Below are positions 16,018 through 63,119 of a stretch of DNA of 64,000 bases, piece after piece. A program made the position numbers and the translations under genes. A model generated the notes under the pieces. It was given only the letters and a program-made list of their open reading frames with translations, did no database searches and was not told where the DNA came from. The DNA lies in NCBI GenBank assembly GCA_015143295.1, contig CM026562.1, positions 11,250,041-11,314,040 on the forward strand, written 5' to 3'. The stretch comes from Tetracentron sinense. Taxonomy: Eukaryota; Streptophyta; Magnoliopsida; Trochodendrales; Trochodendraceae. Position 1 is the first letter of the stretch. Every line of letters begins with the position of its first letter.

Positions 16018-16230
16018 GGCCCCTAGCTAGGGGCGCTACCTCAAACAGCGCCCCCCTAGGGGCCTGTTCTCTTTTGGGCACATCGGCAGTGCATTTTTTA
16101 AAAACCCGGCTAGGGGCGCTACTTCAAGTAGCGCCCCCCAGTTTCGTCCAATTTTGCTGCCTAACTGTTGCTTGCCGCCTTGCTTTTTGGGGTTCTTATC
16201 CAAAAGGGGCGCTACTTGAAGTAGCGCCCC
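16018..16230 (+). promoter_or_regulatory. Three palindromes directly upstream of the LTR TATA box
   Basis: Three 25-base inverted repeats lie at 16030-16054, 16113-16137 and 16206-16230. The second and third have perfect 12-base arms, GGGGCGCTACTT and AAGTAGCGCCCC, with a single C or G between them. The first has 8-9-base arms and is nested in an outer pair, GGCCCCTAG (16018) and CTAGGGGCC (16056), giving a 47-base structure. The last ends about 15 bases before the TATA box. They may bind a dimeric activator, or form hairpins; neither is shown. Confidence 0.75.
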
Positions 16231-16242
16231 CCTGTTTTGAAA

Positions 16243-16256
16243 AACTATAAATACCC
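16243..16256 (+). promoter_or_regulatory. TATA box of the Ogre-like LTR
   Basis: ACTATAAATACCCC is a canonical plant TATA box. It is followed by a pyrimidine-rich stretch (CACTTCATTCTCATTTC) where transcription would begin about 30 bases on. Confidence 0.75.
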
Positions 16257-16497
16257 CTCACCCCCTCACTTCATTCTCATTTCATTTTCACTTGCTCTCT
16301 TCTCTCTCCTCTTTCAAAACCTCTCTTTAGCGTTGGCGATCCCGGGTATTCAATTTTGAAGAATCATTCTCGGGAGCACTTGTTTCAGAAACCCTTTTGG
16401 GTTTCCCGGAAGGTAAAATATCGCCAAACTCTGACATTTTCTTAGTCCTTATTAGTCTTAAACTATTTTATTGTTTTTAAAATACTTAGAATGCTTG

Positions 16498-16770
16498 CAC
16501 TGTCGAACCCCTGCCCGGTTTTACTTAAACATATCTTACCCTGTCGAACCCCTGCCCGGTTTTACTTAAACATATCTTACCCTGTCGAACCCCTGCTCAG
16601 TTTTACTTAAACCTATCCTACCCTGTCGAACCCCTGCCCGGTTTATTCGAACATAGCCTACCCTGTCGAACCTCTGCCCGAATCTCAATTCAAACCTTGG
16701 TTCAAACCCCACTTACCTTAGCCGAACCTCTGTCCGAATCTCGGTTCAAACCCTGGTTCAAACCTTACCC
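16498..16770 (+). repeat. 41-bp tandem repeat, five good and two decayed copies
   Basis: Units start TGTCGAACCCCTGCCCGG near 16501, 16542, 16583, 16624 and 16664, then decay into GTCGAACTTCTATCTAAATC-type copies up to about 16800. The first two are nearly identical, so the expansion is recent. Confidence 0.9.
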
Positions 16771-17419
16771 ACCTAGTCGAACTTCTATCTAAATCTCACT
16801 TTAAACCCTGGTTCAAATCTTACCAAACCCTAACCCAACTCAGATGCTCATTGACATGAGCTCAAACTGTCCAAATACTCCCTGGCAAGAGCATAAAAGT
16901 CCCAAGCGCTCCTGAATAGGAGCCCAAACCATTCAAACTAACATCCAAAAGACAAATCCTAGCATTTCAAACACCCACAATCCAAACAAAACAAATCAAA
17001 CCATCAACTATCCCTCTGGAACTACGTGTAGCTTGATTCCACTAACAGTGGATACGTAGGCAACCCTGATCGGGTTAAGCTCACCTAGGATAGAACCCCT
17101 GTCCTGTCCCGTCCCGGCTTATTTTAAACATGTACATTATTGTTCATATAACGCCTGTCAAAATATATATGAAATACAAGATTCTCTTATGGTTTCCCCT
17201 ACTTTAATTTAGACTTAGGGAGTACGTAATCATCTCCGGATGGAAGTTTAGGGGTGCCTAACACCTTCCCCTAACTCAAATGAATCCTTACCTTGAACTC
17301 TATTTTCAGACCAAAGCCTTATCCAACCTTTTAAGGGACCCTATTTTCCTTAACAATATAAATAGGTTTAAGGGACACTTTCTCTTTTCTACATTTTTAG
17401 CAATATTCCTCCTCGGGTT

Positions 17420-17600
17420 TTGATTTCGGCGACGAATCTTTAGGAAAAATGGAAAACAGGATGTTTTCTGTACTCATTTCAGCGATGAATCTGGATGAGT
17501 CATCCACTTCGTTGATGAAGTCAATCCGAAATAAAAGAACAGTAGGTTTCCTGACTCAATTTTGGCGACGAATTCAGGAACGAAATCCATTTCGGCAACG
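17420..17600 (+). repeat. Cluster of TTCGGCGACGAA-type palindromic motifs upstream of the accessory ORF
   Basis: Variants TTCGGCGACGAA, TTCAGCGATGAA, TTCGTTGATGAA, TTTGGCGACGAA and TTCGGCAACGAA recur over 180 bases. The perfect palindrome TTCGTCGACGAA of the same type occurs in the LTR at 20935-21150, and the motif recurs at 39990-40140. Here the cluster lies 140-320 bases before the ATG at 17743. Confidence 0.75.
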
Positions 17601-17742
17601 AACTGAGTCGTGAGTCTAAATAGTAACCCCCAAATCCGAATTTTTTTTAAAACCTAATCTTTCCCTCCAAAGTTCCTATTCCATTGGTCTCACACCCTTC
17701 TTCCTCCCCAATCTTTGCAAATCTCTCCTTATCTCTCAGAAG

Positions 17743-19872
17743 ATGCCTCCTAGAATGAAGAACGCATCAGTGGAGCCGCCAAAGAAGAAATCAAGAACAG
17801 ACAAAGGGAAAGAACCGGCTTCAAGTTCAACCCCAGTCCTTGTGAAGTTCAAGGAAGCCAAATTCGAGAAATTCTTCAAAGAAAAATTCTTACCTCGCTC
17901 TCCTCTTTACGGTAAGGTTGTAAATTTCATTAGTTTCGATGCCTTACGCCTAGAACCCATAAAAACCCTTTTCTCTACCCTAAAATGGGACAAATTTCTT
18001 GAATCAAACCAACTCATGTTCCCTGAGTTAGTTAAACTCTTTTACACCCACATTCATTTCAATCAATCTGAATCACTCATTACTTCATTTGTCTTAGGTA
18101 AAAACATATCTTTTCACCCAAACCAATTACACTCCATTTTGAAAATTCCTCAGTGCAACCTTCAAACCTTTGTGAATGGTCAGTGGACCAGACATGAAGG
18201 ATTTGATGTGGTGGTAGCACTAAAAATGATGTGCCTGAACCAAGATTTCACCACTCCTTTTCAACCAAAGGTTAAAGACCATACACTCACAGCCAGACAT
18301 ATTCACCATATCATAACCTATAACCTAGTTCCTAGGGCTGGTGGTAGGGAGTATCTCACCTACTTTGATGTATTCCTTATGTGGTGCATCCTAACCACCA
18401 CACCCATTGATCTCTCCTACATCATTGTCCATTGTATGGATGATGCATTTAAGAGAAAATCAGGGTGTCTCCCTTTTGGTCAGGCCCTGACTAAAATCTT
18501 TAAACATTTCAATGTTCCCCTAGCATCTCAAACAGATTATGTCACCCCTGATGACTCCTCCATTTATAGCAAGGCAACCATTCAAAGAATGGATTATTCT
18601 TGGAATGAAACCCAAAAGGTTTTGACCCCCAAACCCTCTGCCTCTTAATTCTCCACTACTCCTTCTACTTCCTCAATCCCTATTCCTACTCCTGGTATGC
18701 CTACCTCTACTCCCACTACATCTATCCCTTCCTCTTCAGCTGCACCTTCAGAGAAACCCCTCGCTAAGCAGCAACCAGAATCAATGCCAGAGGAGGAGGC
18801 CCAGGCTGTGTAGCAGCCAGTTTCTGTTCCAGCAGAGGATCCTGTAGATGTGCTACAGGGTGAGAAGCACCCTTGGAATGAAATGCCTGATTGGTCTAAT
18901 TTTGTGGACGCTGGAGAGATACCTGAGAGTTCTCATAGACAGGTGTCTCCTCACTTTGAGGACCTTGGTCAGTTTTATGAGATGCCCAGTAGGCCAGCAG
19001 CCTCAGAAGAGCAGTTGAGCATCATGGCAGGGCAGATTGCCTCCATATCCTCTAGCCTGGAGCAGTTTCAGTTGGAGATGAGGATGAGCCAGTAGGCTTT
19101 TCAAGAGGAGATGAGAGCCTCCCTAGTCTCTTTCATAACTGAGACAAAGGCAAGCCTTGCTGCCATTCAGTCAGAATCTCGAGAATGTTTTCAGAACCTC
19201 CAATCAGCTTCTTCCTCCAGGCTTACAGCTCTTGAGACAGAAATAATCAATATCCCCAAGGAAGTACAGTCCTCTCTAGCTACTGTTCATGGTGATCTAA
19301 GAGAGAGAGCTGATGCCACTTACTCAGTTTTGGGGACAGTCAACATGGATTCTTCAGTCACCAAAAATAGGGTTAACTCAGTGTCTTCTCTCCTTCATAG
19401 ATTGGGAATAGCTCACTCAGAAGAAAGTATAAAAATAGAGAAAGTCACCCATTTAATCCAAGGACAAGTGGATTCCTCAACTCTTCAATTGAAGACTCAA
19501 GGCAAGCTTCTCCTGGATATGGCAGAGCATGATTCCATATCAGCCTCCATCACTTTGAGAGCTACTGATGAGTTGAAGAAAATGAACAATTTTCTGGTTA
19601 ACTTGGCTAGTGGAGTCACTCCTTCCCAAGCTCCACCTTCTTCCTCCAAAGGCAAGAGGCCAATGAAGACCATGGAGACTCCTTCCAAAAAAGATGCTCC
19701 CATTATCTCTCTTCCCTCTTCCGATGAAGAATCTTCTTCCTCTGACTCTCCTGATGGATCTCCCACCCACTCTAGCAGTGAAGAAGTGACCAAGGCCCCA
19801 GATAATGAAGATGAAGAACCCTCAGAAGACTATCTCTCTAAAGTTACAGAATTAATCAAGAAACAAAAATAA
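17743..19872 (+). pseudogene. Retrotransposon accessory ORF (putative plant transposon protein type), three in-frame stops
   Basis: One frame of 710 codons runs from ATG 17743 to TAA 19870-19872, interrupted only by TAA at 18646, TAG at 18811 and TAG at 19093. The first 300 residues (AKFEKFFKEKFLPRSPLYGK; PIDLSYIIVHCMDDAF; GCLPFGQALTKIF) resemble the putative plant transposon protein domain of unknown function. A low-complexity Ser/Thr/Pro linker follows, then a helical, probably coiled-coil part (LVSFITETKASLAAIQSESR) and an acidic Ser/Glu tail. At all three stops a CAA or CAG glutamine codon with one C-to-T change would fit the context. The ORF lies about 530 bases upstream of a polypurine tract and LTR, in the position of an extra 3' ORF. 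Its function is unknown. Confidence 0.75.
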
Positions 19873-20386
19873 GATGGATTATAACTTTTTTTTGATGTTG
19901 ACATAGGGGGAGAAATGGAATGTAATGAAAATTGATGTGATTCTGGTAGATGTAATGACATTTGACTTTTTAAGTTTAACTATTTCTATGAAATGAATGA
20001 GAATCATTTTTGACATTTTTTTTTGCATCTTTGGACTTTTTTTTTTGCATCTTTGGCAGCATATACAAATATGATTCTTGTTTGATTGTTCAAACATTGA
20101 CATCTTGCTTAAAATTCATGGAACTTCTCTTGATCTTTATCCCTGATTAATCTGTCTTGATCCAATATGTTGTGAATAGAAATTAAATCTGAAATTTATC
20201 TTTGTGGAACTTCTCTTGGTATTTAAATAGGGTGATATATCCTTTAGTCCATCTAAAATATGCATCCAAACACCAACTATGTTTTCTATTGCATATGTTT
20301 TAGGGGAGCTTACCTCATAGCTTTTATGTATGGACCAGTATAAGGGGAAGCCTAGCCCCATTTCATTACATTGTAATGTCATCATC

Positions 20387-20400
20387 AAAAAGGGAGAGAT
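20387..20400 (+). other. Polypurine tract before the 3' LTR
   Basis: CATCAAAAAGGGAGAGAT ends directly at the TG of the LTR. This is the primer site for plus-strand synthesis in copia-type elements. Confidence 0.75.
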
Positions 20401-21904
20401 TGTTAGCCTCAGGGTTACAACCATGGGTATCCTAAATAATTTTGATAATTACATAATAATGAAATGAACTATTTGGTACTAATAATCTTGTTTAAAGTGT
20501 TTGAACATTTCAGAATACACAAGATGACAACACTCGAATCATGAAAAATGATGGAAATTACCCAAGAGGAAGTTCAACCCATTGTATACAAGATGAAGAT
20601 TCAAGATAAGACCATAGTCCAAGTTGGGTCCATTGAAGGTTAAAGGCAAAATCACTAGACCCAAGTCAAGTCAAGTTCATCTCTCAACTATTTAAATGTA
20701 TTTAGTTTTTATTTTTGAGAGTTCATAGGACATATGTAAAAAGTCCTCAAAAAGAATGGTAAGTTGAAAAGCTCAAGAATCATAGATTGACCATAGGAGC
20801 ATAGGATACTCTTTAAAAATCATTCTAAAGCTCTAATTGATCATAATATCATGATAAGAGTATAGCTAATTGACCTAGGAAATCAATCACATCCATTTGG
20901 TCTGATCCAAAACTGAATTCAGGTTTTTTTACTCTGACTTCGTCGACGAATTCTCTGGGTAGATTGAATTCGGCGACGAAGTCATGACAGAATTCTTAAA
21001 ATTCAATTTTGTCTCTTGATTTCGGCGACGAACTTTCTGGTTAAATTAAATTCGGTTATAAAGTCATTACAAGGTTTTTCATAATTCAATTCTGTCTTCT
21101 TTATTCGGTGACGAATTCAAGTGGGAACTCCACTTCGATGACGAAATCTTGTCTGACTCTGAAAAATCATTGTAACAGCTATTTTTCAACGGATTAAATT
21201 GCATTTAATGAGCCTATAACGGCTTTATTGGATCAAATGCTATAAAATGAGTTCATTTATGAACAAATAACAACTCTTGATCCCAACAATAACTCCTATT
21301 GATCACTCATTCATTGCTATTGATTCTCACTCATTCTCACACTTAGAAAATCCCCAAAAATCTCTCTTGAGCTCATTCAACTCCTATTTCCTTTGAGAGA
21401 CTATATTAGAGTTTGTATTTCACTCTTATTCAGCTCATTTAAGGAGCTTTCATTTCGGATTTTAAATTCTAAACTCATTTATTGAGGTCAGTCAAGAATT
21501 TAGGATTCTTGCACTGAAGCTGTTGCTTCAGTTTTATCAAGAGAGGGTTGTGCTCTTGAAAGGCTTCAGCTTGACCTAAAGGAGAGCTTATAAAGGTAAT
21601 ATCTCGAGCTGCAAGAGAGATTGTAAGGGTTTGGACTCCACCTGTGAAGGAGCCTATGCGATTAAGGAATCGTGGTGAATCTTCTAGCAAGAAGCTGAGG
21701 CGGGGAGTAGGCTGGTTTGCTGAACCTCCTGAACAAATCTTGAGTTTTCACTTTCCTTACCTCTTCTCCTTTTCTTTTAATATTCTATTGTTTAGCTTGT
21801 AGCATATTTAATTTTATTCCACCTTTTGAACTTGTGGTTCATATTTTTAAAATTTGCCATAGACCCTATTTACCCTCCCCTTTAGGGTAATTACTTGGCC
21901 AACA
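20401..21904 (+). mobile_element. 1.5 kb LTR (3' LTR), SIRE-like
   Basis: The LTR starts TGTTAGCC and ends GGCCAACA, giving an inverted terminal match. The same start occurs at 46735 and 48692, and with one change at 40525. Inside are a palindrome cluster (20935-21150), a TATA box CTATAAAATGA (21240-21250) and the end motif CATAGACCCTATTTACC shared with the copy ending at 48242. It is preceded by a polypurine tract, so it closes the element that carries the accessory ORF. The matching 5' LTR is not recognisable. Confidence 0.8.
20935..21150 (+). promoter_or_regulatory. Palindrome cluster upstream of the LTR TATA box
   Basis: TTCGTCGACGAA (perfect palindrome) is followed by TTCGGCGACGAA twice, TTCGGTGACGAA and TTCGATGACGAA. 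The cluster ends about 90 bases before the TATA box at 21240. Confidence 0.8.
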
Positions 21905-22150
21905 GATCGAATGCTCCATAATTCACAAGATGAGATCTGTGAAATTAGAGAAGATAGTTTATATCTGCCTAATCACGGCGATCTGATGATGTGCCCAAAG
22001 GCAGGATCACATTCAGCCAGTGTCTATGTTTTCAATGCCAATTGATTCTTCCTAAATTGGCAATACCATTAGAAATAGACCCATAATCTAATAGGTATTA
22101 ATGAAGACAATAGATCCCTAATACTATCTTTTTTGTCATTTGATTAGATC

Positions 22151-26090: not shown

Positions 26091-26097
26091 ACTTTCA

Positions 26098-26112
26098 GGG
26101 CAAGTGGGAGAT
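26098..26112 (+). other. Polypurine tract of the copia element
   Basis: GGGCAAGTGGGAGAT directly precedes TGTTAGAC, the start of the 3' LTR. Confidence 0.7.
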
Positions 26113-33486: not shown

Positions 33487-34419
33487 AAGGTCCATATTTT
33501 GTATTGGCTTAATTCCGATGTCAAAATGGTGTCAATGTAAGTCTAGTGTCGTTGTTCCTCTGGTTGATGAAGATTGATGAAGATGAAGCTCCAAAGATTC
33601 AAGATAAGTACATTCCGGTTTCAAGCTTCGCTCACACTGTAGAACCCCGGAACCGAGTTCACTATGCTATGAATAGTGTTAGTGAATAGTGTCCTTATAT
33701 GGCGTGTGTAAAGGCCTAAGGCCTCTCATTTTGTTCTTGATATTATGATTAGTCAATTGAGGGTTTTAGGTACATGGTTTGAGTCTTAAAAAGAGAGTGT
33801 AAAGATACTCTAAGTGGGTAAAATCAAGGGTACAAATACCCTAAGTGTTTCAATGGGTTGTTGGTGAATAGTGCTAGTGCATGAGGAATAGAGAGGCCGG
33901 AGCCTCTCATGCGTGTCGGTGTAAATTTGATGATCATTGAGGTGGGTTAAAGACTTATGAAAAATGATTTATGAGTTGTGAGTAGGGTGTTGGACACAAG
34001 GGAAAAGAGTGAAAACACTCGAGGTGTTCTAGGTGTTTAAAAGGTATGTCTTGGCATTTGCTTCAACTTTAAAGGGCTCTAGTTTAGTCATCGTTGTTCA
34101 TAATCGAATGATTACTGAATTTTTGGAAATGTATTAGAACCCTCTTCAAGGTTCATGTTTATCATTTCCCAGATTTTGAGTCGGGGCCGAGTCAAAAGTG
34201 GGAATTCCAAAATCGGGTCGGCTGCAAATCTGGGCTGTCGCAACCCATTGCAGACTAGTCAGCTTTAGGGGCATTTTGGTCTATTAATAAAGAAGAATTA
34301 GAATTTCTTCAAAACACAAATATTGTTCCTCTTCGAAAGAAAAATCCAACGCAAGTTGAATCGTCAAAATCGGAGCTCCGAGTCAAAAGTTATGGCCAAA
34401 ATACTGAAGTGCGTTTTGC

Positions 34420-34530
34420 AGCACCGGTCAATACCGAGAGATCGGTCCACTACCGAGAGATCGGTCATAAGCACCGATCGATCGGTCCACTACCGATCGA
34501 TCGGTCATCTATCGGTCGTTTATCGGTCCT
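34420..34530 (+). promoter_or_regulatory. ATCGAT-centred palindrome cluster in the LTR
   Basis: ACCGATCGATCGGT (perfect 14-base palindrome) occurs once; ACCGATCGATCGGTC and ACCGAGAGATCGGTC variants bring the cluster to five or six sites within 110 bases. No clear TATA box follows; the closest candidate is TATTCATAAACAC near 34613. Confidence 0.75.
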
Positions 34531-35504
34531 ACGTGATTTTCAGAATTTTTTAAGGGGTTTTTTGGTCTTTTGGCCACTCCACCCTTATTTTTAAGGGTTG
34601 GCTCGAGCCAAGGGTATTCATAAACACCCTTAGCCATATTTTGAGAGAGAGAGAGAGAGAGGAGAGAAGGGGTTTTCACCCTAGGGTATCAACTTGAGAA
34701 AATCAAGGGGGTTTTGAAACCCACGACCATCCCAAAAGCTTGGATCTCTCAATTTGCGGCTCAAGCACGCGAGGAGCACGTTCTCCAAGCTCGGCAGCAT
34801 CTTCCATGGTATTTTTCAAGGGTTTTCCTCCCCTATTCAAGGTTAGTACACCCTTCCTAGTTAAGCTTAGTGATAACCTAGGTTTTCCTTTAAGCATGCT
34901 TGTGTGTGATCTTGTATATATTCCCTCTTCTTAATCATGTATAAAATGCCCTAAATGAACAAGATGAATTAAATGGTTGTGGATGTATGGGATGTGGATG
35001 GTAGAGATGCTTGGATGCCATGTAGAGGTGATGATTATTGTGTGATGAAAAGGGTGGAAGGGCAATGTATCCATAATGCACATACACTACATGTTTGATG
35101 AAATGCTTGATTTAAATATACAAGTTAAAGGTTAAAAGAATTATTGCATATCACATATTTGATGAAATGCATGAATGAGGACTAAATTAAGACAATGAAA
35201 ATATGATTTAGGGGTTTCTCCCCAATTGGGAAACTTGAATGAAATGTTATACATGTTCCTTGAAAACTCACATTCTTATTGGGATTATAGTAATACTATA
35301 TGATGTTTATCATTATATCACCATTATATCACCAATTGTTATGCATGCATGATTATGTCACTATGATTTCCACAACTTGCTACACACAAGCACAGATATG
35401 TGAATGAACTAAGGTTTTTAAATGAGCATTAAGAAGTGAAACGAGTACAGGTAAATGTAAGGAAAATAAGTAAGGCCTCACACGCATAAGTTTGATAAAT
35501 GAAA

Positions 35505-36300
35505 TGTCAAGGAGGTTGGTAGCCCCGGTTAAGGGTGCTAACCTCTGGCTCATAAGAAAAGTATTGGAATTGTCAAGGGGGTTGGTAGCCCAGGACTGTG
35601 CGGGTGCTAACCCCTGGCTCATAAGAAAGGACTTGAAAGTATTGTACTGTCAAGGAGGTTGGTAGCCCCGGTCAAGGGTGCTAGCCTCTAGCTCATAAGA
35701 AAAGTAACGGTATTGTCAAGGAGGTTGGTAGCCCAGGATTATGCGGGTGCTAACCTCTGGCTCATAAGAAAGGTGTTGTATTGTCAAGGGGGTTGGTAGC
35801 CCAGGGATGTGCGGGTGCTAACCCCTTGCTCATAAGAAATATATTGTACTGTCAAGGAGGTTGGTAGCCCAGGGATCTGCGGGTGCTAACCTCTGGCTCA
35901 TAAGAAAAGAATTGAATTGTCAAGGAGGTTGATTAACCTCTGGCTCAGAAGAAAAGTAATGGAATTGTCAAGGGGGTTGGTAGCCCAGGATTGTGAGGGT
36001 GCTAACCCCTGGCTCATAAGAAAGATATGGAACTATCAAGGAGGTTAGTAGCCCAGGGATGTGCGGGTGCTAACCTCTAGCTCATAAGTAAGGTATCGTA
36101 CTGTCAAGGAGGCTGGTAGCCCAGGGATGTGCGGGTGCTAGCCTCTGGCTCATAAGAAGTGTATTGTACTGTCAAGGGGATTGGTAGCCCAGGGATGTGC
36201 GGGTGCTAACCCCTGGCTCATAAGAAAGGTATTGTACTGTCAAGGAGGTTGGTAGCCCAGGGATATGCGGGTGCTAACCTCTGGCTCATAAGAAATATTG
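35505..36300 (+). repeat. Twelve-unit tandem array of about 67 bp with conserved hairpin arms
   Basis: Each unit runs TGTCAAGGAGGTTGGTAGCC, a short loop, then GGGTGCTAACCTC and TGGCTCATAAGAAA. GAGGTTGGTA can pair with TGCTAACCTC, followed by a bulged G and CCC/GGG. At the second arm position eight units have A with T and four have G with C; I found no mismatch at this pair. One unit (about 36100) has C with G at the fifth pair where the others have T with A. One unit (about 35917) has lost its loop but keeps GAGGTTGATTAACCTC. Two stem pairs are G-T on the plus strand, which pair in plus-strand RNA but not in minus-strand RNA. Confidence 0.85.
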
Positions 36301-36473
36301 AAAGGACAACTCAAAGAGGAATTGTATGATGCATAGAGATGTTTTAGTTTCATAATAATTATGACTTGATAAAATGTTTATGTATTATGTTGCTTTACAT
36401 AATTATGATCTGTACTATTCCATCACTTGTATATGTTATTTACTCGTTATTATAATGGTTAGCTAGGAGCTTG

Positions 36474-36512
36474 TACTCGCTGAGTATTCCATGCTCAGCC
36501 GTACTTTTATGT
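36474..36512 (+). other. Conserved short hairpin GCTGAGTATTCC...CTCAGC
   Basis: GCTGAGTA-ttcc-ATGCTCAGC is found here, at about 12965, and as GTTGAGTATTCCATACTCAGC at 14587. It is always followed within about 20 bases by a TGTCGGCAGGT-like motif. It is the best conserved segment of this LTR family in the window. Confidence 0.7.
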
Positions 36513-36905
36513 CGGCAGGTACAATATACGTTTATGTATTCTGGGTCCGTGGATCGAGGTTATCAGGGAGAGTAGGAGCTTGATTGAATTGTCACCAGAC
36601 ATTGGGGGCTCGGATATGTGGTACTATGGGGGGGGGGGGTTGAGTGAGAGAGACATGTATTTTGGGATTTACTTTTGGGGGGATTTTCATGTAAGCTTGA
36701 ATTGGTGATTCAAGCATTTGTACATCTGTATTATTGTATTTTATTCAGTCGTTCGTTTTTGTAAACACTTGGGAGTACATTTATTTTAAAGAAATTTTAT
36801 GTGTCACTTTTTGGCATGCCTTGTATGCTCTTGCAGGATGGTTGTCGTGGTAGGTAACGAGCTCAAATATCGCCTAACTCCTAGGGGATGTTTTGGGGCG
36901 TTACA

Positions 36906-37990
36906 CACACTCTTAGGATGGTAAGTGACCTAGATACCTTGTGGTTACCATAGGTGAAATTGACTTAGAACACCTTAAGCATATATCCTAGGTGAATAGA
37001 AATTGACCCATGTAATGTTAATAGCCTTTGGATGATCTTAATTAGGTTTTGGATGTTGAAACAGGGGTGGCAGTGCAAAACAATCAAAATTTGCACAGGT
37101 CGTTCGAACGCCTAACCTGCCCGTTCGAATGCCCAAGAACAGCTGGCTGGCCGTTCGAACGGGCAATTGAGATAAAAAAAAGTAGCTTGTCTAGCCCCCC
37201 GTTTTTGTCTGTTTTCAACTAATCTCAAGGCCGTTCGAATGCCCCTCATGGCCATTCGAACGGACCTCGTATTTTTGCTTTCTAAATTCATCCGAAGTTT
37301 GTTTTGGCAAGTGCTATTGCCTTGACTATTTATTGGATGATCCCTTAGCTCGTTCTAAGGAATTTGAGAGAGAGTTTAGAGACTATTCTGAAGATTTGAA
37401 GGTTCTTAAATCCCCACTTAGTGTATACCTTTAGTTCTCCTCTCTCATGCTCTAGTTGATGCAAGATCGAATTGTTCTATCTTAAGTTGTATCGGTTGAT
37501 CTCCATTATCGTTAGAGATCTCACTGGAGCAGTATTTCGTTCCTTCATATTAGTTTGAACTCTATATGAGTGTTGGTTGGCATTGCCAAAGCCGTTGAGG
37601 ATGGAGATCGATCGTTGGATCGTAGATTAAAACTTTGAGAAAAGTTGGCCGGTGAGGAATCGAAGTTGCTGCTGCAGAGATGGAACGAGGAGTTTGTGGT
37701 TGTTCTACAAGACAGAGAATCTGTACTGAGGAACAGTCTTTGGTGTCTGGTTGAGTAAGATTTGGTCTTGTGTTTGATAACTTATTCTCATAGTGGATTT
37801 TGTGCTGGACTAGGTCCCGTGGTTTTTCTCTGAAGGGTTTTCCACGTAAAAATCTTGTGTGTGGTGGATTGCTTGTCTTCTTTACTTTCTGCACTTGTTT
37901 GCTTTGTTTGCCATAACTCTGATTATTAATCGATAAATAAAAAATTGGTAGACATTGCTAGGAAGACCTATTCACCCCCCCCCCCCTCTA
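36906..37990 (+). mobile_element. 5' LTR-like region of a SIRE-like element
   Basis: It shares GGACTAGGTCCCGTGGTTTT, TCTGAAGGGTTTTCCACGTA and AAAATCTTGTGTGTGG with the 3' LTR region at 40990-41050. It ends AGACCTATTCACCCC with a run of 12 C (37975-37986) and CTCTAGG, like the ends of the other SIRE-like LTRs here. The left border is not clear. Confidence 0.55.
37085..37265 (+). promoter_or_regulatory. TTCGAA-centred palindrome cluster
   Basis: CCGTTCGAACGG (perfect 12-base palindrome) and variants CCGTTCGAATGCC, CGTTCGAACGCC and CCATTCGAACGG give five sites in 180 bases. A weak TATA-like CTATTTATTGG follows at about 37327. Confidence 0.75.
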
Positions 37991-38009
37991 GGTCAAGGAA
38001 TCATTGAAC

Positions 38010-39989: not shown

Positions 39990-40140
39990 CTGATTTCGGC
40001 GACGAAATCAAGAGAGCACTTAAGATTCGGCGACGAATCATTAATTTGAAGGAAACAGAATGTTTCCTGTATTCTTTTCGGCAACGAATTCTCTGGGCCA
40101 AGAAAATTTCGGTGACAAAATTGAGCGTAACCATATTGAT
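39990..40140 (+). repeat. TTCGGCGACGAA motif cluster upstream of the 3' LTR
   Basis: TTCGGCGACGAA occurs twice, with TTCGGCAACGAA and TTCGGTGACAAA. The flank GGAAACAGAATGTTTCCTGT also matches the cluster at 17420-17600, so the two stretches share ancestry. Confidence 0.75.
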
Positions 40141-40510: not shown

Positions 40511-40524
40511 AAAAAGGAGGAGAT
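40511..40524 (+). other. Polypurine tract of the gag-only element
   Basis: CATCATCAAAAAGGAGGAGA, then T, ends at TGTCAGCC. Confidence 0.7.
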
Positions 40525-41245
40525 TGTCAGCCTATAGGTTTTCACCTTAGGTCTTTATAGTGATTTTGATAATAACACAATGATAGAGTGAGATTTGTGT
40601 TACTAATGCTTTTATTGAGTTTATATAATAAACAGTTTATAAAGAGCATTAGCAAGTCATTCAAGATGAAAAACACAATAATAGAATGAGATTTGTGTTA
40701 CTAATGCTTTTATTGAGTTTATATAATAAACAGTTTATAAAGAGCATTAGCAAGTCATTCAAGATGAAAAAGCATGAAAATGACTCCATCCACGAAGAAA
40801 GATCTTTACCAAGTCAAGAAAAGCTATTGAATCAAGTTGGATCACAATGAAGATAATTAAAGATCATATCAAAAGTCAAAGTCCAAGTCAGATCATCAAG
40901 AAGATTGAAGGATCATAGTGTCAAGTCTGAGGGAGTCAGGTTCGAGTCTTGTAAGTATTTGGTACTTTGTCTTAGTAATATTTCTTTACTGGACTAGGTC
41001 CCGTAGTTTTTCCCTGAAGGGTTTCTACGTAAAAATACATTGTGTTGTGGTTTGCTTGTTTCCTTATTCCACACTTTATTGTCCATCCTCCCTTAGTTAA
41101 TAATTTAATTGTAAAATCTCATTAGTTAATAATTTAATTGTTAAATCTTAAAAAGGGTGGATAGACTTATAAGAAGACCTAGTCATCTCCTTGAGTTTGT
41201 GAGTTCTTGACTAGACATAGATTTGGGATTCACCGGATTTTTTTT
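40525..41245 (+). mobile_element. 3' LTR (shortened) of the gag-only SIRE-like element
   Basis: It starts TGTCAGCCTATAGGT and is close to the solo LTR at 46735 (TGTTAGCCTATAGGT). A tandem duplication of 98 bases lies at about 40577-40770. Only about 720 bases remain and no CA end is clear; the promoter part of the 46735 copy is absent. Confidence 0.65.
40577..40770 (+). repeat. Recent tandem duplication, period 98 bp, two copies
   Basis: The segment starting AGATTTGTGTTACTAATGC at 40591 recurs at 40689 and stays identical through AGTCATTCAAGATGAAAAA. Slight differences only appear at the joint (GATAGAGTG against AATAGAATG). Confidence 0.9.
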
Positions 41246-41248
41246 AGA

Positions 41249-41837
41249 TTCTTATTGAGCGTTTACACACTTCTCCAAACACTGTGTGCATGACCCAACG
41301 TACCCAAAGTTATTCCTGTGTATTGGATATTGTCATATGGCACATCAAAGTCATATAGACTGATGTTTGAAAAAATGTTAACCTCTCAGGTTTAATGATA
41401 ATATGTATGGATAACCCTAATACAATCTGACAGTGTATTCCATAGGTATCCACTAGTGACCCCGTTCAATATTATGTACTTACTACATATACTCACATGT
41501 TAGTCAAGAGTCAACACTCTCTGTGAATGAGATTCATCACACTATCTTATAGAGCTATACATGTGCAAGCCATGATGAAGTATGACACCCAATCAGTACT
41601 AGATCTAGAGGCTTAGAACATTATTAGGTTTACAAAGAACTGGAAAATCATATCTCCTCGCAACCTTTGCATGATTTTCCTTCAATGTTACCTAAGGAAC
41701 CTTATGTCATCATCAAATGAGACATTAACAATTATAAATACCCTTTATATATAGTTGTGTGAATGTGATGCATTTTTAATCAACATAGAAAAGTCTTATA
41801 TTAGCTTTCGAGGGCATATAAGTCCAACAAGGGTCCC
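41249..41837 (-). mobile_element. Copia LTR fragment, minus strand
   Basis: The reverse complement starts TGTTGGACTTATATGCCC at 41837 and matches the plus-strand LTR at 56366 for about 590 bases (AACGGGGTCACTAGTGGATA, GAGGTTAACAT, TTTGGAGAAGTGTAAA). The rest of the LTR is missing. It lies just right of the 3' LTR of the gag-only element. Confidence 0.75.
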
Positions 41838-42975: not shown

Positions 42976-45478
42976 TCAAACAATGAAATGGATCTTAGGC
43001 ATGATGTCTCGAATGAGCCATTTTGCCATTTGCTTATAAGCCTCCTGAGTCAAATGCATACCATCCCAACTAATGCGTCTCTCAGGATGGCGACAAACAG
43101 GAACCATTTGAGCTCCACAAGGCCTAGTAGGATCAAAGTTGTAATCGCCACCAATTCCACAACAAGCTTTCCGTATAGACCCCACATCGAAACCTTGTCA
43201 TGATAAATCACAAACAGTCATTAGAACTAATTCTCCATTATTAAACTATACATATTGTTTTGGGTATAAGTGATGTCAAGACTCACCAAGATAAGGAGCA
43301 TCCTGAAGGAGCCACTGGAAGGCATTGTAATAATCAGCATACACCACAACAACATTAGGGTATTCCTGATTTAACTCTAAAATGGATTGTTGGAGGAGAT
43401 TGTTGTAGTACATGGAAAAGTTGTTTAAATCTTTTAGGCACTTGAATTCGTCGTAAGCTGCGGAATCATTGCTTTTTAATGTTGTGAGATAAAAGGGAAA
43501 ACAACCCAATGGAAAACTCCCAGGGACAACGATTCGAAGAGCACCGTGATCAATCACTTCCTGTATCCATAGTAACAAAGTATTATGAATTTTTTGAAAA
43601 TTGCCAAATAACATTTGACTTTTTCTTCGAACGATTAATTCACGACTTCAGGAAAAAAAAAACATGATTTTTTCAAAAAATCGCGAATTTTACATGTTAA
43701 ACACAAATTATTCACCTTTTTTTTTTTGAGAAAGTGACTAATAAATATATAATATTTGAAATATATTTATTTAGAATTTTCTTAACATCTTGCCCAACAA
43801 GTTTTAGATTTATTTATGAAGTTCAAAATTTTCCTAGTCAAATAATTCTCGAATCCCCGATTTAGTAACTATGCATGTATCAGAGAATAAAGAAAGGAGT
43901 ATAATTTTTTTGTACAGGTGATCAATGATCACAACAAATTAATCACCATGTAGAGATGTATATCAGATTAATGTGTATTGCAGAAATAATATTTGGACTA
44001 TAATTCATCCAAGATGGGGCCCAAAAGTCAACAGACTAGCTAGATCGACAGATAGATATGCAGTTGCATGTGCCCTATGCCAATGGCTCCAGATGGTATC
44101 CTATTATTTTTTCAAGTAGAGAAAAAATGCTAGCATTACTACCAAGTTCAATGAGAAAGATAATATGTTGTTATGAGAAAGAAGCTTACTTTAGTGGCAT
44201 TCTTTATAGCCTGAAAAACTTCTGGCACAATTTTCTCGACCTCCTCTATGGTTTTGCCCTCGATAAAAGCATAGTTGCAATCGTTAAGTCCAATCTCCCC
44301 CATCATGAAGAGAGACTTTTCAAGCCTTTGTGCACACTCTAAAAAATATTGAGAAAGAAACAGTAACAGAAATATAGTTATGACATAGTTAAGCTAAGCT
44401 TGATTGAAAATTTATTGTAATCTGATAACCTGTTTTTGATTTACAGATGGAACTGAGATGAGTCTTGAACCACTGGAGTTGGACGTTGAGGGAACTGTTG
44501 GTATACAGTGGTATAATGTTCAATTTTGCAAGGGAGGAAGTGTCGAGTGCAGTCGAACCAACTACTGCAAAGTTTACTCCATGAGTGAAATCGGAATGGC
44601 TTTTCAGATACGGGTTGAGAAGGGGGAGATGAGCGGCGAGGGCTGTAATGCATAAAATATGAAATTGTTACTAGAAAATTAGTAACAAAAAGAGATTAAC
44701 AACAAATAAAAGTAGTAAGGGCTCATTTGGATCGGATTATGCTTATTGGAGACTTAATCGCTTATGTTCAGATTATGTCCCAATAATAACATTTTGGTTT
44801 GATTCATGAGCGGTTATGTATTAATTGATTATGAAAATAACCAGGGATTTCATTGTCTCATCAAGGGGTGATTATTGTGGAGCTAGCATAGCCGCTTATG
44901 CACCTTTACGACTCATGAAAATAATTGTAAGCACCCAAATTTGCACCCATTAAGGCCTACAAGATCCATTAAGTTTGAGAGAGAGATTCCTCAAAATATT
45001 GTTTTCTTTTTTCACAATAATCAAAATAGATTTTTTAACAATGACCATCTCTTATCGGCATAGTGTAACCAAACACAATTACAGCTATCAGTGCTTATTG
45101 ACAAAAACATTTATTCATGACAGCACTTATCAGCATTATCACTTATTACTGCAATAATCTGTACCGGACAAGCACTAAGAAACATAAGACATAGGTCTTA
45201 CCGAGATAGTCAACCATTAGGAGACCGTTCGAGGCTCGACCGGTGGGCATGTTGAAGAAAGTTTTGCCATATGGAAGGTGAGCATATACAGAGGCGGCGC
45301 CGATTGGAACTTCACGTATAAAATTACCAGTATCTGAAATCGAGTCCCCAAATTGATATATGGAGTCAAAAGTGCAACTTGGGAATTTAGCAGCACAAGG
45401 ACGAATAAGAAGAACAAGATAGTTTGATACTAAGAAGAGTAGGAGAAATGAGAGAAACCAAGCTCGGTGAGTAGCCAT
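42976..45478 (-). CDS. GDSL esterase/lipase (SGNH hydrolase), five exons
   Basis: Splicing exons 45202-45478, 44430-44642, 44190-44338, 43287-43560 and 42976-43193 gives an uninterrupted 376-residue protein. All introns are GT-AG with consistent phases. Residues 1-30 are a hydrophobic signal peptide, so the enzyme is probably secreted. The family blocks are complete: FGDSISDTGN with the nucleophile Ser46, HGVNFAVVGS (Gly114), GEIGLND with Asn182, and SWDGMHLT with Asp348 and His351. Most plant relatives have GGND at block III; here it is GLND. Length is normal. It belongs to the plant GDSL esterase group that includes acetylajmalan esterase-like proteins and acts on ester bonds; its substrate cannot be told. 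It is the only gene here that looks functional. Confidence 0.93.
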
Positions 45479-45554
45479 TATTAAAGAAAGTATTCAGAAA
45501 GGCAAAGGACAAGAGATTGTTATGCTTGGTGACGATTTTATCTAGACATCATGC

Positions 45555-45569
45555 CTATATTTATAAAAG
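45555..45569 (-). promoter_or_regulatory. TATA box of the GDSL gene
   Basis: On the minus strand CTTTTATAAATATAG lies about 80 bases upstream of the start codon, leaving a 5' leader of roughly 50 bases. Confidence 0.65.
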
Positions 45570-46031
45570 GTGTTTTTTACAATTGGAATCCGAAAGGCAA
45601 ATGGATCTTGATCCTATTACGCGGATGCTGATTCATACAAGTCCAAAGAACTTTTGAAACGTTATCTGATTTTCACCAAAAGACAAGAATTAAAGTTATG
45701 GGTATAATTGTGATTAAAGAGGCATTTTGCATGAGAAATGAAAATTTGAGGGTCTGTAATCATTAGTAGAAATTTCCACCCATCTCAGTTTAGAGGAACC
45801 TCGGTTCCTTTCTTCAGGACCCCTCTATAGAGACCCTCCACCCGATAGATAGCAATGTGGCGTTAATATGCAATCAAGGTTGACCCACTTAAAACAAAAT
45901 CTCCCACTTCTATGAATGAAACTCTACAAGATAAGAACAAGATCTAGTATATCTTTCATTTTTTTTGTGGGGCCCAACACATTTTTGTCTTCTTGTCTAG
46001 AAAAACGAAAAATGGATGAGAAGGAAAGTGA

Positions 46032-46602
46032 CACTACAAGAAAACTAGGTTTTACCAACGGTTTGAAATCCTCAGTAATATTCTCATTTCCGTCGATATC
46101 GGATGCAGCAACGGAATTCTGACTGTCGGTATGCCATCGCTAATACGAGCGTCAGTAAATCTATAGCGACGGAAATTTGCAACCATCGCTATTAATAATA
46201 ATTTCGTCCCTATATATGTGTTATGCAGGACCTTTTCCAGTACAGTTCCGACAGTTTGTTCTATCTCTAATGATTTATTATTAAATTACGACGATAATTA
46301 ACCGTTGCAATATCGTATATACCAACGGTTTTATTACCGAGGCTGATTTCAAATCTACCAACGGAATAATTATTGTCAGTATAACCACAAATATACTGAG
46401 GGTTAAATTACCTTCACTAATACTGATGGGATGTTACCGTGGCTATAATTCCAGTATACTGACAGTCATATATACGTCGCATATTGTAAATTAGCGATAG
46501 AAGATTACCGTCACTAATAATTTTTTTTTATTAAATTATTAGCGACGGTAATATTACCATCACTAATACCCTTTCGGAAAAAAAAAGGCCCTGTATGTAG
46601 TG
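46032..46602. mobile_element. Small non-autonomous CACTA element (about 570 bp)
   Basis: It starts CACTACAAGAAAACTAGG and ends GGCCCTGTATGTAGTG. In between are repeated CCGTCACTAAT, AGCGACGG and TACCAACGG blocks in both orientations, like the subterminal repeats of CACTA elements. It has no coding capacity. Left flank is TGA, right flank ACT; a three-base target duplication is not exact unless the end is read two bases earlier (TGTAG followed by TGA). Confidence 0.7.
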
Positions 46603-46734
46603 ACTGTATACCCTGTATACCTATCCACCTATCGTCTGTTAACCTGTCACCTATTTTCAAAGACAAATTCATATATATAATGATCGACACACATTCCTAA
46701 TAAAATTTAATTACAAAGTATCGATCCACATAAA

Positions 46735-48242
46735 TGTTAGCCTATAGGTATCTACCATAGGTCTCCTTAGTGATTTTGATAATGACACAATAATATAATG
46801 AGATTTGTGTTACTAATGTTTCCATTGAGTTAATGTGATATTCAGTTTATGGAGAGTATTAGCAAATCATTCAAGATGAAAAGGCATGAAAATGACACCA
46901 TTTATGAGAAGAATTCAACATCAAGTCAAAAGCAAGCTATTGGATCAAGTTGGATAAATTTAAAGATCGTACAAATCCAAGTCATGAAGAAGAAGATTGA
47001 TCATGAAGTCAAAGAAGACAAATTCAATCAAGATCAAGATGAAGAATGAAGACTCTCTTAGAAAGGTTTAATGTTTTACATTTTGGTATGAGACTATTTA
47101 GGACTTTTGTAAAAAGTTCTCAAAGTTTGGTTGATTGAATGCTCAAAACCTAGATTGACCTTAGAAGCCTAAGACCAACATTGAATAACTTTCTAAGGCC
47201 CTCGGACATCATAAAGAATGACCAAAATCATGATAAAGATGATTCATAAGACCTTGGAATTCAATCCCATCATTAAGGTTAAGAAAAATAGATTTTATGC
47301 TGAAAATCAACCATCCAGTCGACTAAATGAACCATCCAGTCGACTAGATGAAGGCCAAGATTTTGATCTAGCCACTGGGTTCATCCAGTCAACTAGATCA
47401 CTCATCCAATCGACTAGATGCCTGGAGACAGGTGTTAAAAACCCTATAACGGTTATTTTTAAATGACTCTTTTGCATTCAATGTGTCTCCAATGGCTATA
47501 TCTTTGCAATGACTATAAATAGCGATGATTTATGAATTAGAATGTGATGATATATCAATCCAATCATCTACTCCAAAGCTTAGATTTCCAAATCTATTGA
47601 GTTAAACGTAAAATCTCAAAATCCCATATCTTGAGCTATTCAACTCCAATCGTTGGGAGATTTTCTGTGAGCTTTAGAGAGATCATTTAGCTTGTTTTAG
47701 AATCAAATTATGATTGTAAAACACTTCTCATCTAAGTGTATTGAAATCAAGAATCGGTGGATTCTTGTCCTTGAAACGGAGAGCTTTGTAAAGTCAAGAG
47801 AGAGTGTTCTCTTGTAAATAGGATTAATCTTCACCCGTAAGAAGATTGTAAAGGTCTAATCATCACCCGTAAGAGGATTGTAAAGGTTTGATCTTCACCT
47901 GGATGAAGATTGTAAAAGGTTTGGTCATCACTCGGAATAAGACTGTGCGAGTAAAATCGTGGTGAATCCTCTACTGGGTATAGCTTGAGGCAGGGACGTA
48001 GGCAGGATTGCCGAACGTCGTGAACAATATCTTGTATTTGCATTCTCTCTCCCTACTCTTGTGTTTTCATTCTCTCTCCCTAGTCTTTACTTTATTGCTT
48101 TGCATTGTTTGTGTAGAATTTCATAATTCATTTCCCTTTTAATTAGTATAATCGAAATTCCGCTTAAGGGATTAAGAAGATTTTTGAAATTGTCATAGAC
48201 CTTATTCACCCCCCCCTTCTAGGGTCGAATCCTTGGGCAACA
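46735..48242 (+). mobile_element. Solo LTR, SIRE-like, with 5-bp target duplication ATAAA
   Basis: It starts TGTTAGCC and ends GGGCAACA, 1508 bases, flanked by ATAAA at 46730-46734 and 48243-48247. No internal region accompanies it, so it is the product of recombination between two LTRs. Inside are a GTCGAC palindrome cluster (47318-47425), a TATA box (47513) and the AGACCTTATTCACCC end motif with a C run. Confidence 0.85.
47318..47425 (+). promoter_or_regulatory. GTCGAC-centred palindrome cluster and TATA box
   Basis: ATCCAGTCGACTAGAT and variants (CCAGTCGACTAAATG, CCAGTCAACTAGATC, CCAATCGACTAGATG) give four sites in 108 bases. CTATAAATAG follows at 47513-47522, about 90 bases downstream. 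Confidence 0.8.
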
Positions 48243-48540
48243 ATAAAGTCAACATATGCAAAAATAAACAAGGTGATCGTCGTAAATAGTAATATTACAC
48301 AAATATCCCATCCACGATGTTGGGTATCATCTAATGGCTGAGTAGCGTCTGTATCATACGATGAATATCTGGGCATTTTGTTCACTTCCCGCCCAAAGTT
48401 ATTCATAAAACCTTCCATTCTTGACACAGTGCTTTGCAGAGCATAAATCATAGCCCTCTGTGACTTCATCATCACCACAAGCTCCGCCTAGTGAGCATCA
48501 AATGCGATTTCTCGATCTTGGGATTCATGAAAGCCATTGA
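48243..48540 (-). pseudogene. C-terminal fragment of an unidentified gene with a membrane anchor
   Basis: The minus strand reads ESQDREIAFDAH, one stop, AELVVMMKSQRAMIYALQ, STVSRMEGFMNNFGREVNK, an acidic/polar linker, then GWDICVILLFTTITLFIFAY and VDF. The hydrophobic stretch of about 20 residues close to the C-terminus looks like a tail anchor, and the preceding part is helical. I do not recognise the family. The solo LTR at 46735-48242 is inserted seven codons before the old stop: across the target duplication the frame continues MWIDTL and then stops at about 46710. The right side runs into the 230-bp tandem repeat, so upstream exons are lost or distant. Confidence 0.45.
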
Positions 48541-48691
48541 GATTTCTAAATAACCCACATGGTAATTGTTTTCAAAGCCATTGAGAAATATGATTTTTAA
48601 TGGAAAGTCAGCTTGTTTTCTAAGCCATGCATTGAGAAATATGAGTTTTAACGGAATGTCAGCTTCTTGATTTTTTAGCATCCCTTCAAAC

Positions 48692-50006
48692 TGTTAGCCT
48701 CAAGGTTACAACTCTAAGTACCCTTAATAGTTTCGATGATAACAAAATAATTGAATGATTTTAATGGTACTAATATTTCCATTTAAAATGTGTAATTTCA
48801 GAGAAAAAGAATATTAAACTCATCATTCAAGATATGAAGAATTGAAGAGTTCAACCACTCAAGGTCATCAAGATCAAAGTCTAAGTACTAGTCACTTCAA
48901 GGGAAAAAGTTTCAAGGACTCAAGCCAATTCATGAAGTCAAGTCAAAACTGAAGCTCCATAAGTTCCATGACAAGATTATCACTCAATGAAGACTAGTGT
49001 CAAAGTCTAGGACCTTGTAAAATCCTCAAGACATTGAAAATGATTGCTCAAAGGTTACCTAGATAGACCCTACGAGACTTAGAATAATTTGGACATCATT
49101 CTTAGGGCCTAAAAATATTTAAAATGATAATATTAAGATTGCCTAAAAACCACAACACCATTCTCATCACGTTGGTCTTATTATAGATGAGTTCCCTGAA
49201 ATTTTTCAATGGACTCGTCGATGAGTGGAATGACAGAAAATTGATCAATTGCTTACTGTTTCCACTCGGCGACATCTTTGGGTTTTTCCATACTCACTCG
49301 TTGACAATTGTATGCGGAAAATGTCTACAACGGCTAGTTCGCATTAATTGTGCTCTCAACGGCAATCACCATATTGATTGCTCAACTATAAATAGAGCTT
49401 ATTTATGAACTAAATAGAAGATTCTAACACTATTCATTCATACTTTGATTATTCAATACTCTCCAGCAATCAATACTCTGTTTTTACATTGAATACCTAG
49501 AATCTCAATCCCTCATTCTTTGAGCATTTAATTCCAATCAATATTGAGTGATTATTAGCTTTGTATTTCATTCTTATCTAGCTCAGTTAGGAGTTTTGAA
49601 ATTCGGATTTCATATCCAACAAAAATTCTGTTTAAGCTAAAGTCAAGAATCGAGGATTCTTGCACCATTTGAGAAGAAGGTCTTCTTGTATCCAAGAAAG
49701 GGTTTCTCTTGAAAGGGTTAGATTCTAAGCCTGTGATTATAAAGGCTTACTCTCTGCCCATAAAGAAGAGTGCGATTAGTAGAATCGTGGGAAAATCCTT
49801 AAAGAGGGAAGCTTAAAGGTGGGGACGTAGGCAAGTTGCTGAATCCTGATAACATATCTTATGTCTGGTATCTTTGTCTCTCTCTCTATATTTATCTTTG
49901 TTTATTGTTGGTATATATAGCATTAGATTTTAATTCCACAAAAATCAGTTAGATAAAATTTTTAAATTGCCATTGACCCTAATCCCCCCCCCCCCCCCCC
50001 CCCCCC
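48692..50006 (+). mobile_element. Solo LTR, SIRE-like, inside the 230-bp repeat, ending in a C run
   Basis: It starts TGTTAGCC and is flanked by CAAAC at 48687-48691 and 50007-50011. Removing the LTR and one CAAAC restores a normal repeat unit (CCCTTCAAACTTGTAATG). The right end is a run of about 24 C (49984-50007) in place of the usual CACCCCCC...GGCCAACA, so the last 30 or so bases of the LTR are missing. A TATA box lies at 49386-49395. Confidence 0.8.
49200..49310 (+). promoter_or_regulatory. ACTCGTCGATGAGT-type palindrome cluster
   Basis: GACTCGTCGATGAGTGG, CCACTCGGCGACATC and CACTCGTTGACAATT occur within 110 bases, and CTATAAATAG follows at 49386. The sites are more decayed than in the other LTRs. 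Confidence 0.6.
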
Positions 50007-63075: not shown

Positions 63076-63119
63076 GCAGATTAGGGTATTCTTAGAGTAC
63101 TTATTGAATACTTGACATA

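Follow-up and report, generated by a model that had tools for sequence, protein, structure and literature searches.

Palindromic arrays at the locus

The window analysed here is a stretch of 64,000 nucleotides from Tetracentron sinense, in which several long terminal repeat (LTR) retrotransposons carry rows of short palindromic sites upstream of their promoters. Six LTRs were considered, of which four look Sirevirus-like, one gypsy-like and one unclassified. All the features described below lie on the plus strand, and the genome searched for their copies comprised 1.16 Gb in 1479 contigs. The palindrome arrays before LTR promoters are confirmed as real, and a preliminary description of the window had already listed most of them.

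The 3' LTR of a Sirevirus-like element (family A) extends from 20401 to 21904, with TG...CA ends determined by eye, and has 40 scored genome matches, the window's own included. Its U3 (unique 3') region contains array A (20939..21145, from the scan and the copies) with sites at 20939, 20969, 21021, 21051 (decayed), 21104 and 21134, followed by a TATA box at 21241..21248. When 29 copies were aligned with the window sequence, six sites were present in 23 sequences and five in seven, and TATAAA occurred anywhere in the aligned piece in 28 of the 30. The family F LTR (46735..48242, TG...CA ends by eye, with genome copies) contains a polyC-rich stretch and array F (47312..47420, from the scan and the copies), which is built of four CATCCAGTCGACTAGATG-type sites spaced 21-49-21 and followed by a TATA box at 47514-47521. 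The LTR of family B (48692..49990 from sequence and copies, 3' end approximate) holds array B of the ACTCGTCGACGAGT type (49213..49310), which is decayed in the window and was defined from 30 aligned sequences including the window, with 3 to 5 sites in each; its TATA box lies at 49387-49394.

The TATA regions of these three LTRs had been described as homologous and their palindromes as different. Both statements hold, since promoter-proximal alignment of the majority-rule pieces gave z from 9.7 to 16.1, and the arrays gave z of 0.7 for 20401 vs 46735, 2.9 for 48692 vs 46735 and 8.1 for 20401 vs 48692, the last pair having the common core TCG[GT]CGACGA. A conserved TTTATGAAC follows the TATA box in all three families, at 21251-21264 in family A, where it forms the inverted repeat GTTCATTTATGAAC, and at the equivalent position in B and F. 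Between array and TATA box, the three related LTRs also have in common two to three AACGG boxes each (21173-21240, 47444-47500 and 49329-49365), which we take to resemble the core of the mitosis-specific activator element of plants, the target of MYB3R factors.

Array E belongs to the LTR of an unclassified element at 16 kb and consists of three 25-bp inverted repeats of the GGGGCGCTACTTNAAGTAGCGCCCC type (16030-16054, 16113-16137, 16206-16230), established from the sequence and genome copies. With up to 6 mismatches of 25 allowed, all three sites were found in 17/17 sequences (16 genome copies and the window), and the TATA box TATAAATA at 16246..16253 is shared by most aligned copies. The family was recognised as an LTR element from paired copies, in some cases 7.9-10.8 kb apart; no significant Pfam match was obtained in nine stretches of a 4-kb internal piece.

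The 3.27-kb LTR of family D (33638..36905) was delimited by aligning it with a copy in which both LTRs are partly present and belongs to a gypsy-like element with an interior of 1.55 kb and no long open reading frames (ORFs). Array D (34433..34505, from the scan and the copies) has four ACCGA-NNNN-TCGGT sites at 34433, 34452, 34473 and 34492, then direct half-sites TATCGGTC 11 bp apart, and a weak TATA-like TTCATAAA at 34617..34624, seen by eye in 18/18 aligned sequences. No pol was seen in the element. Its primer-binding site (PBS) is TGGTATCAGAGC and its polypurine end looks gypsy-like, and we take these ends to be of the Ty3/gypsy kind. A perfect palindrome TTGGCTCGAGCCAA lies just before the TATA-like stretch (34598-34611) and is identical by eye in 15/18 sequences.

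A further array at 37 kb (37100..37263) is known from the window copy and has CCGTTCGAACGG-type sites at 37100, 37121, 37151, 37231 and 37252; it precedes a copia gag gene (37952), and its interpretation rests on the window copy together with GTTCGAAC pairs elsewhere in the genome. Promoter-proximal homology of the 37-kb LTR to families A, B and F was not clear (z from -0.4 to 4.0). An array of TTCGGCGACGAA-like sites at 39995, 40026, 40077 and 40108 (39995..40119), found by the unbiased scan, lies upstream of purine tracts and the LTR start (40525) of another Sirevirus-like element. Its TATA position is decayed by eye, and similar spacers with an intact TATAAATA occur elsewhere in the genome. 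The LTR arrays at 16, 21, 47 and 49 kb are followed by a TATA box, those at 34 and 37 kb by a weak TATA-like stretch only. Long tandem arrays at 1-616, 35500-36319, 50070-51211 and 62077-63076, with periods of ~179, 68, 229 and 30 bp, lie beside or inside the repeats of the window.

Class of the carrier elements

A polyC-rich 3' end, described for Sireviruses as an integrase signal, could be made out by eye in four LTRs, those at 20401 (weak), 46735, 48692 and ~37 kb, and also in 5' LTR copies. A purine tract with AT/TG before the 3' LTR was likewise seen by eye at 20390-20402 and, in the other element, at 40514-40526; an automatic pattern for this junction, probably too strict, matched 1/30 A loci and 1/30 B loci. 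The 5' LTR/PBS junction, which a 3' or solo LTR cannot match, was of the CAACA-ATTGGTATCAGAGC type in 5/6 printed A examples and 4/6 printed B examples. The loose CA/ATTGGTATCAGAGC pattern matched 8/30 A and 12/30 B loci, of which at least one A match and at least two B matches are unrelated DNA.

In four further places (contigs C1, C5, C6 and C9), the family A LTR and the internal array described below were found on the same strand no more than 6 kb apart, and on C5 and C9 the internal array has LTR matches on either side that are separated from each other by 9.5 and 12.0 kb. The copy on C5 (L144) has three pol domains in sequence just upstream of the internal array: rve, whose match (1e-4) falls below the curated cut-off, then SH3, then RVT_2 (1.6e-53). 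This one family A copy thus shows the Ty1/copia order, integrase and then reverse transcriptase. The copia fragment behind the window's 20401 LTR probably belongs to another element.

Detection of the arrays

The strict scan required at least three similar 12-mers with no more than one mismatched pair inside 300 bp and found 2 clusters in the window vs 0 in 100 dinucleotide shuffles. With up to two mismatched pairs allowed, 21 clusters were found, several of them ordinary tandem repeats, vs a mean of 0.40 and a maximum of 2 in 60 shuffles. The claim that the clusters exceed chance is therefore upheld, shuffled sequence giving almost none. The looser scan, blind to the earlier places, brought back four of the arrays already described (20.9, 34.4, 37.1 and 47.3 kb) and added the two internal ones at 17425-17602 and 39995-40119. 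The arrays at 16.0 and 49.2 kb failed the palindrome-cluster scan of the window, the former due to its 25-bp units with an odd centre and the latter due to the single nearly clean site in the window copy; both are clear in aligned genome copies. All the motifs named in the preliminary description were present at, or a few bases from, the places given for them, and most of their copies are imperfect. Exact counts in the window were 1 for TTCGTCGACGAA, 2 for ACCGATCGATCGGT, 1 each for CCGTTCGAACGG, ATCCAGTCGACTAGAT and ACTCGTCGATGAGT, and 2 for GGGGCGCTACTT. Genome-wide, TTCGTCGACGAA occurs 2083 times vs 55 for the reversed pattern. The preliminary description had missed the internal arrays and the partly known status of the layout.

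Spacing of neighbouring sites

Neighbouring palindromes are spaced near multiples of 10.5 bp, the helical repeat of DNA, in the window arrays and at 20 other loci; this is new here. The window spacings were collected from arrays already seen. With family B taken from the copies, their best period in a scan of 5-30 bp was 10.3 bp, and at 10.5 bp R was 0.72, matched by 1 of 20000 jittered sets. Window coordinates alone gave a best period of 10.4 bp (R 0.79, 0 of 20000), and omission of the two internal arrays left R at 0.68 (26 of 20000).

The core of the 37-kb array, GTTCGAAC, supplied a second set: of its 1080 pairs, 50 places were listed. Among these 50, 29 pairs were at 20 bp and 6 at 21 bp, and 47 fell within 19-22 or 29-32 bp, ranges chosen after viewing the data and having a uniform expectation of 13.3. 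For listed pairs of AGTCGACT the corresponding figure was 48/50 with the same expectation. After dereplication, 34/36 GTTCGAAC places and 12/14 AGTCGACT places remained within these ranges, the latter set being drawn from 22 of 50 strings with one family's repeats excluded. Pairs of AGTCGACT number 626 in the genome vs 13 for the reversed control, and 35/50 distinct listed places have them 21 bp apart by eye. The AGTCGACT pairs listed also include a large family, not recognised in the window, whose CGAGTCGACTCG-like sites stand 21 bp from each other and enclose a further dyad.

Twenty of the 50 listed GTTCGAAC loci, hand-picked for differing gaps, were fetched, and at least three sites with no more than one mismatch were present in 17 of them. 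Their best period in the 5-30 bp scan was 10.5 bp (R 0.76, n=69) and remained 10.5 bp when the selecting pair was removed (R 0.69, n=49); the jitter test at 10.4 bp gave 0 of 5000. Spacings of 32-99 bp taken alone were also phased (n=24, R 0.58). When distinct spacings were counted once per cluster of related loci (9 clusters, n=39), the best period was 10.6 bp, with R 0.67 at 10.5 bp.

Such regularity could also arise as a neutral by-product, if a chance palindrome were tandemly duplicated under concerted turnover and the spacing were simply the length of the duplicated unit. A 21-bp unit is duplicated in family B, families A and C have an 83-bp period, and 19/29 of the 12-nt gaps are more alike than random ones. 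However, other gaps of equal length are dissimilar (nearest neighbour down to 6/12), yet 29/50 places have one spacing; the phasing extends to spacings of 32-99 bp, and the arms of the sites are less variable than the spacers. Duplication of this kind is a very unlikely source of the arrays as a whole.

Conservation and turnover of the sites

Variability was measured as difference from the majority base, comparing palindrome arms with non-CpG flanks in six alignments. The arm/flank ratio was 0.20 in family A, 0.07 in B, 0.45 in C (the internal array of family A), 0.60 in D, 0.36 in E and 0.62 in F, so that the arms are 1.6- to 14-fold less variable than the flanks. Shifted masks equalled the arms in 0/326 cases for A, 0/212 for B, 0/288 for C, 34/192 for D, 3/318 for E and 1/187 for F, which makes the difference significant in 5/6 families. 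The sites are therefore held within families and are not fast-evolving there, contrary to the fast turnover that had been proposed; all six alignments point the same way. Motif turnover between families is real. That the palindromes are strictly family-specific is not supported: TTCG[GT]CGACGAA-type sites are shared by the 20401 LTR, its family's internal array and the internal array that a different element has at 40 kb, and the 48692 LTR also contains the core TCG[GT]CGACGA.

The sites could also be conserved as CpG-rich palindromes that act mainly as methylation switches or CpG islands and have no dedicated dimeric reader. Most sites contain CG, arm CpGs are nearer to the majority base than flank CpGs in 6/6 alignments (with few flank columns), and CpG islands around the motifs are noted in Bousios 2010 (PMC2829016). 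Neither the helical spacing nor the symmetric changes of the arms, described next, are predicted by methylation, and we consider it most improbable as the main role of the sites.

Arm bases outside the fixed core change symmetrically, which is also new here. The third position outside the GTTCGAAC core was symmetric in 40/55 sites, taken from the 20 partly related loci, vs 19.6 expected on re-pairing (0 of 2000). In 36 dereplicated loci the gap ends were symmetric over three to five bases (78/144 vs 59.5 for four bases, 1 of 2000); over one or two bases such symmetry was absent. The ninth pair of the second site in the 16-kb family was A-T in 11 sequences and G-C, G-T and A-C in two each (17 sequences). 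Families A and B have a common core and outer arms of TTCG/CGAA vs CTCG/CGAG. Dyad symmetry of whole arrays beyond their sites was unconvincing, the best centre vs the shuffle maximum being 19 vs 19 in A, 16 vs 19 in C and 18 vs 17 in B.

Palindromes of this kind may also act as RNA. In such a scheme, the U3 arrays at the 3' end of genomic RNA would form stem-loops, some with GNRA-like loops, which serve packaging or dimerisation; alternatively, as has been suggested in maize Sireviruses, Dicer would cut them into small RNAs and so supply the silencing machinery of the host. RNA folding gave z from -2.1 to -10.7 on both strands for 9/11 arrays (6/8 window arrays and the three majority-rule arrays A, B and C), the sense strand carries GGCGAC at all the asymmetric centres (in families A and C 83 exact vs 0 reversed), and small-RNA hotspots over maize Sirevirus palindromes are mentioned in citing papers (PMC10760457, PMC5311732). 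On the other hand, two window arrays folded no better than shuffles (z -0.6/-1.5 at 17 kb and -1.3/-1.1 at 49 kb), and most palindromes leave a loop of no more than 4 bases. Recognition as DNA is favoured, and structure is regarded as a side effect or a second use, since hairpins fail to predict the helical period, the fixed distance to the TATA box and the 11-bp direct half-sites of family D. As a primary function, hairpin formation is unlikely.

The internal array and the reading frame behind it

The second array of family A (array C) lies inside the element, after pol, at 17425..17602 and has TTCG[GT]CGACGAA-type sites at 17425, 17478, 17508, 17561 and 17591, identified by the unbiased scan and in 14 genome copies. 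These copies were mostly the best-scoring of 39 other places, 40 of 753 candidates having been listed. Together with the window they comprise 15 sequences, with six sites in 9, five in 4 and seven in 2. The majority-rule spacings are 30-52-30-53-30 in the LTR array and 30-53-30-53-30 in the internal array, both of six TTCG[GT]CGACGAA sites. In 13/14 fetched copies, TATAAATA stands 12 bp past the last internal site; the window copy has at this position (17615..17622, placed from the aligned copies) the decayed form TCTAAATA. Genome-wide, CGACGAA is followed by TATAAATA at 4-30 bp in 253 places vs 133 for the reversed control, which was not CpG-matched. Of 100 listed places among the 253, 84 (counted by eye) have a gap of exactly 12 bp, filled by several clearly different 12-mers.

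About 126 bp past the internal TATA box, an ATG opens a reading frame of 301 amino acids up to the first stop (17743..18648) with a match to Transposase_32 (PF20167, 1.2e-19) and a basic PPKKKSR stretch at its N-terminus. The frame is interrupted in the window copy and in 10 fetched copies. Divergence at the three codon positions in these 11 sequences was 0.108, 0.093 and 0.180, and the median ratio of nonsynonymous to synonymous divergence (dN/dS) was 0.23 over 55 pairs, a set that includes two high-dN copies (L115 and L118), probably frame-shifted. Both measures indicate that the protein was selected in the source lineage, and the ORF was thus under purifying selection in the past. No homologues were found at E <= 0.001 among 644 candidates, the best match to PDB sequences had E 0.32, and the single-sequence fold was poor (mean pLDDT, the predicted local distance difference test, 38.6). 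A second open stretch in the same interval (19096..19872) has a basic KGKRPMKTMETPSKK stretch, an acidic tail and a coiled-coil-like appearance by eye, with no Pfam match, and may be part of the same gene. An envelope identity was considered and set aside on weak evidence: with hydropathy maxima over 19 residues of 1.61 (first part) and 0.89 (second part), there is no clear membrane span. In sunflower, an Athila element encodes behind pol a Transposase_32 protein that carries a nuclear signal (PMC11728184).

A model of site recognition

Taken together, the arrays are probably sites to which a symmetric DNA-binding factor attaches cooperatively along one helix face, driving the LTR promoters and the internal promoter. 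In this model, the arrays would be promoter-proximal DNA elements, namely rows of symmetric putative binding sites which the near-whole-turn spacing would place on one face of the helix. A dimeric nuclear factor would bind them cooperatively and activate the LTR promoter, and in Sirevirus-like elements with the extra ORF the same factor would drive the internal promoter for that ORF. The core would be kept, and a shift in what the factor or its paralogues prefer would bring matching changes in both arms from one family to the next. The arrays themselves, their spacing period, symmetry and conservation, the fixed distance to the internal TATA box and the past selection on the ORF are observed; protein binding, the dimeric state and activation are what the model would add. 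It was already suggested in the preliminary description that a conserved requirement, perhaps for a dimeric factor, lies behind the palindromes. This part is supported as far as a conserved need for dyad sites near the promoter goes, and helical phasing together with symmetric arm changes makes the sites best read as those of a dimeric factor; the fast turnover within families that accompanied the suggestion did not stand. The LTR and the internal promoter carry the same motif in nearly the same geometry, which also speaks for the model.

Several observations weigh against it. The spacings are ~0.5-0.9 bp short of whole turns, and pairs of GTTCGAAC are not above their reversed control (1080 vs 1178), a control without CpG. 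The 20 GTTCGAAC loci collapse to 9 clusters, one of which holds 9 loci, and 19/29 12-nt gaps are nearer to another gap than the random 95th percentile; with related loci and alike gaps, neither the spacings nor the arms count as wholly independent observations. Only 7/20 of these loci have a TATA-like box at 20-130 bp from the sites, on one side or the other, where flank shuffles gave a mean of 2.35 and a maximum of 7. The reversed control for CGACGAA with TATAAATA was also high, the arms of family D were not significantly less variable than the flanks, the 55 sites showed no significant symmetry at the other positions beside the core (1, 2, 4 and 5), and arrays fold better than dinucleotide shuffles as RNA, with z down to -10.7.

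The boldest candidate for the factor is the element's own nuclear-looking protein. The Transposase_32 ORF might encode the protein that reads the palindromes: as a nuclear dimer it would bind the same helix-phased sites at its own gene and at the LTRs and act as a self-recognising positive-feedback activator or anti-silencer, in which case the arm changes could reflect co-evolution of protein and site. We regard this identity as possible but doubtful.

What has been a descriptive observation on plant LTRs would become, under this model, a testable and specific case of protein-DNA recognition with a spacing rule, and the family A array offers a concrete candidate internal promoter for the extra (envelope-like) gene of Sireviruses. 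If one factor or factor family reads such arrays across many families, a large part of the retrotransposons in a plant genome would come under common control at this point.

Comparison with known systems

The layout of the arrays is partly known from Bousios 2010 (PMC2829016). In that paper, Sireviruses (Ty1/copia) are described as having repeated palindromic motifs upstream of the TATA box and of the env-like gene, varying by element and absent from classic copia elements; their specificity to Sireviruses is meant there in relation to other Ty1/copia elements. The arrays considered here are alike in being palindromic, repeated and upstream of the TATA box in the LTR and of an env-like gene, and TCGA-centred examples occur there too (Vitis CGGTCGACCG, Tnd-1 ACAATCGATTGT). 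They differ in their cores, which are mostly TCGA or one to two bases off (GCGA, GAGA) and not CGG-CCG. The CGG-CCG core is not seen here: families A, B, C and F and the 37-kb array have TCGA or near, and family D and the 37-kb array have CCG and CGG in reverse order. Tnd-1 in the same source is also without the CGG-CCG core.

Helical spacing, symmetric arm changes, an internal TATA box at a fixed distance and arrays in LTRs that may not be of Sireviruses are added here to the account in Bousios 2010. The words 'helical' and 'spacing' appear in that paper once each, in the reference list only, and 'spaced' does not appear. No report of a spacing rule for such palindromes, or of a mapped Sirevirus internal promoter, was found among the titles and beginnings of abstracts listed in searches of an open-licence library. 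According to Bousios 2010, an internal env promoter was supported and not conclusively identified; the internal array of family A with TATAAATA and the ORF is a strong candidate for it. A known feature appears to have gained a substantially stronger functional case: one family has putative helix-phased symmetric sites at each of two promoters, and the gene that follows the second was under selection.

The palindromes of maize Sireviruses (Bousios 2016) are similar in forming a palindrome-rich cis region of LTRs. That work reportedly stresses secondary structure, small-RNA targeting and high sequence variability, whereas here the arms are conserved within families and the spacing points to DNA. 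The VANC anti-silencing proteins of VANDAL transposons (Hosaka et al. 2017, PMC5735166) offer a likeness in short motifs that are repeated in non-coding parts and differ between relatives. VANDALs are, however, DNA transposons with the motif YAGTATTAY, for which binding by the element's own protein was shown, while the present sites are known from sequence alone. The foamy virus system (PMC8670036) also has two promoters per retroelement, one of them internal. Transactivation is carried out there by Tas; in the family described here, the same motif stands at both promoters and its reader is only proposed.

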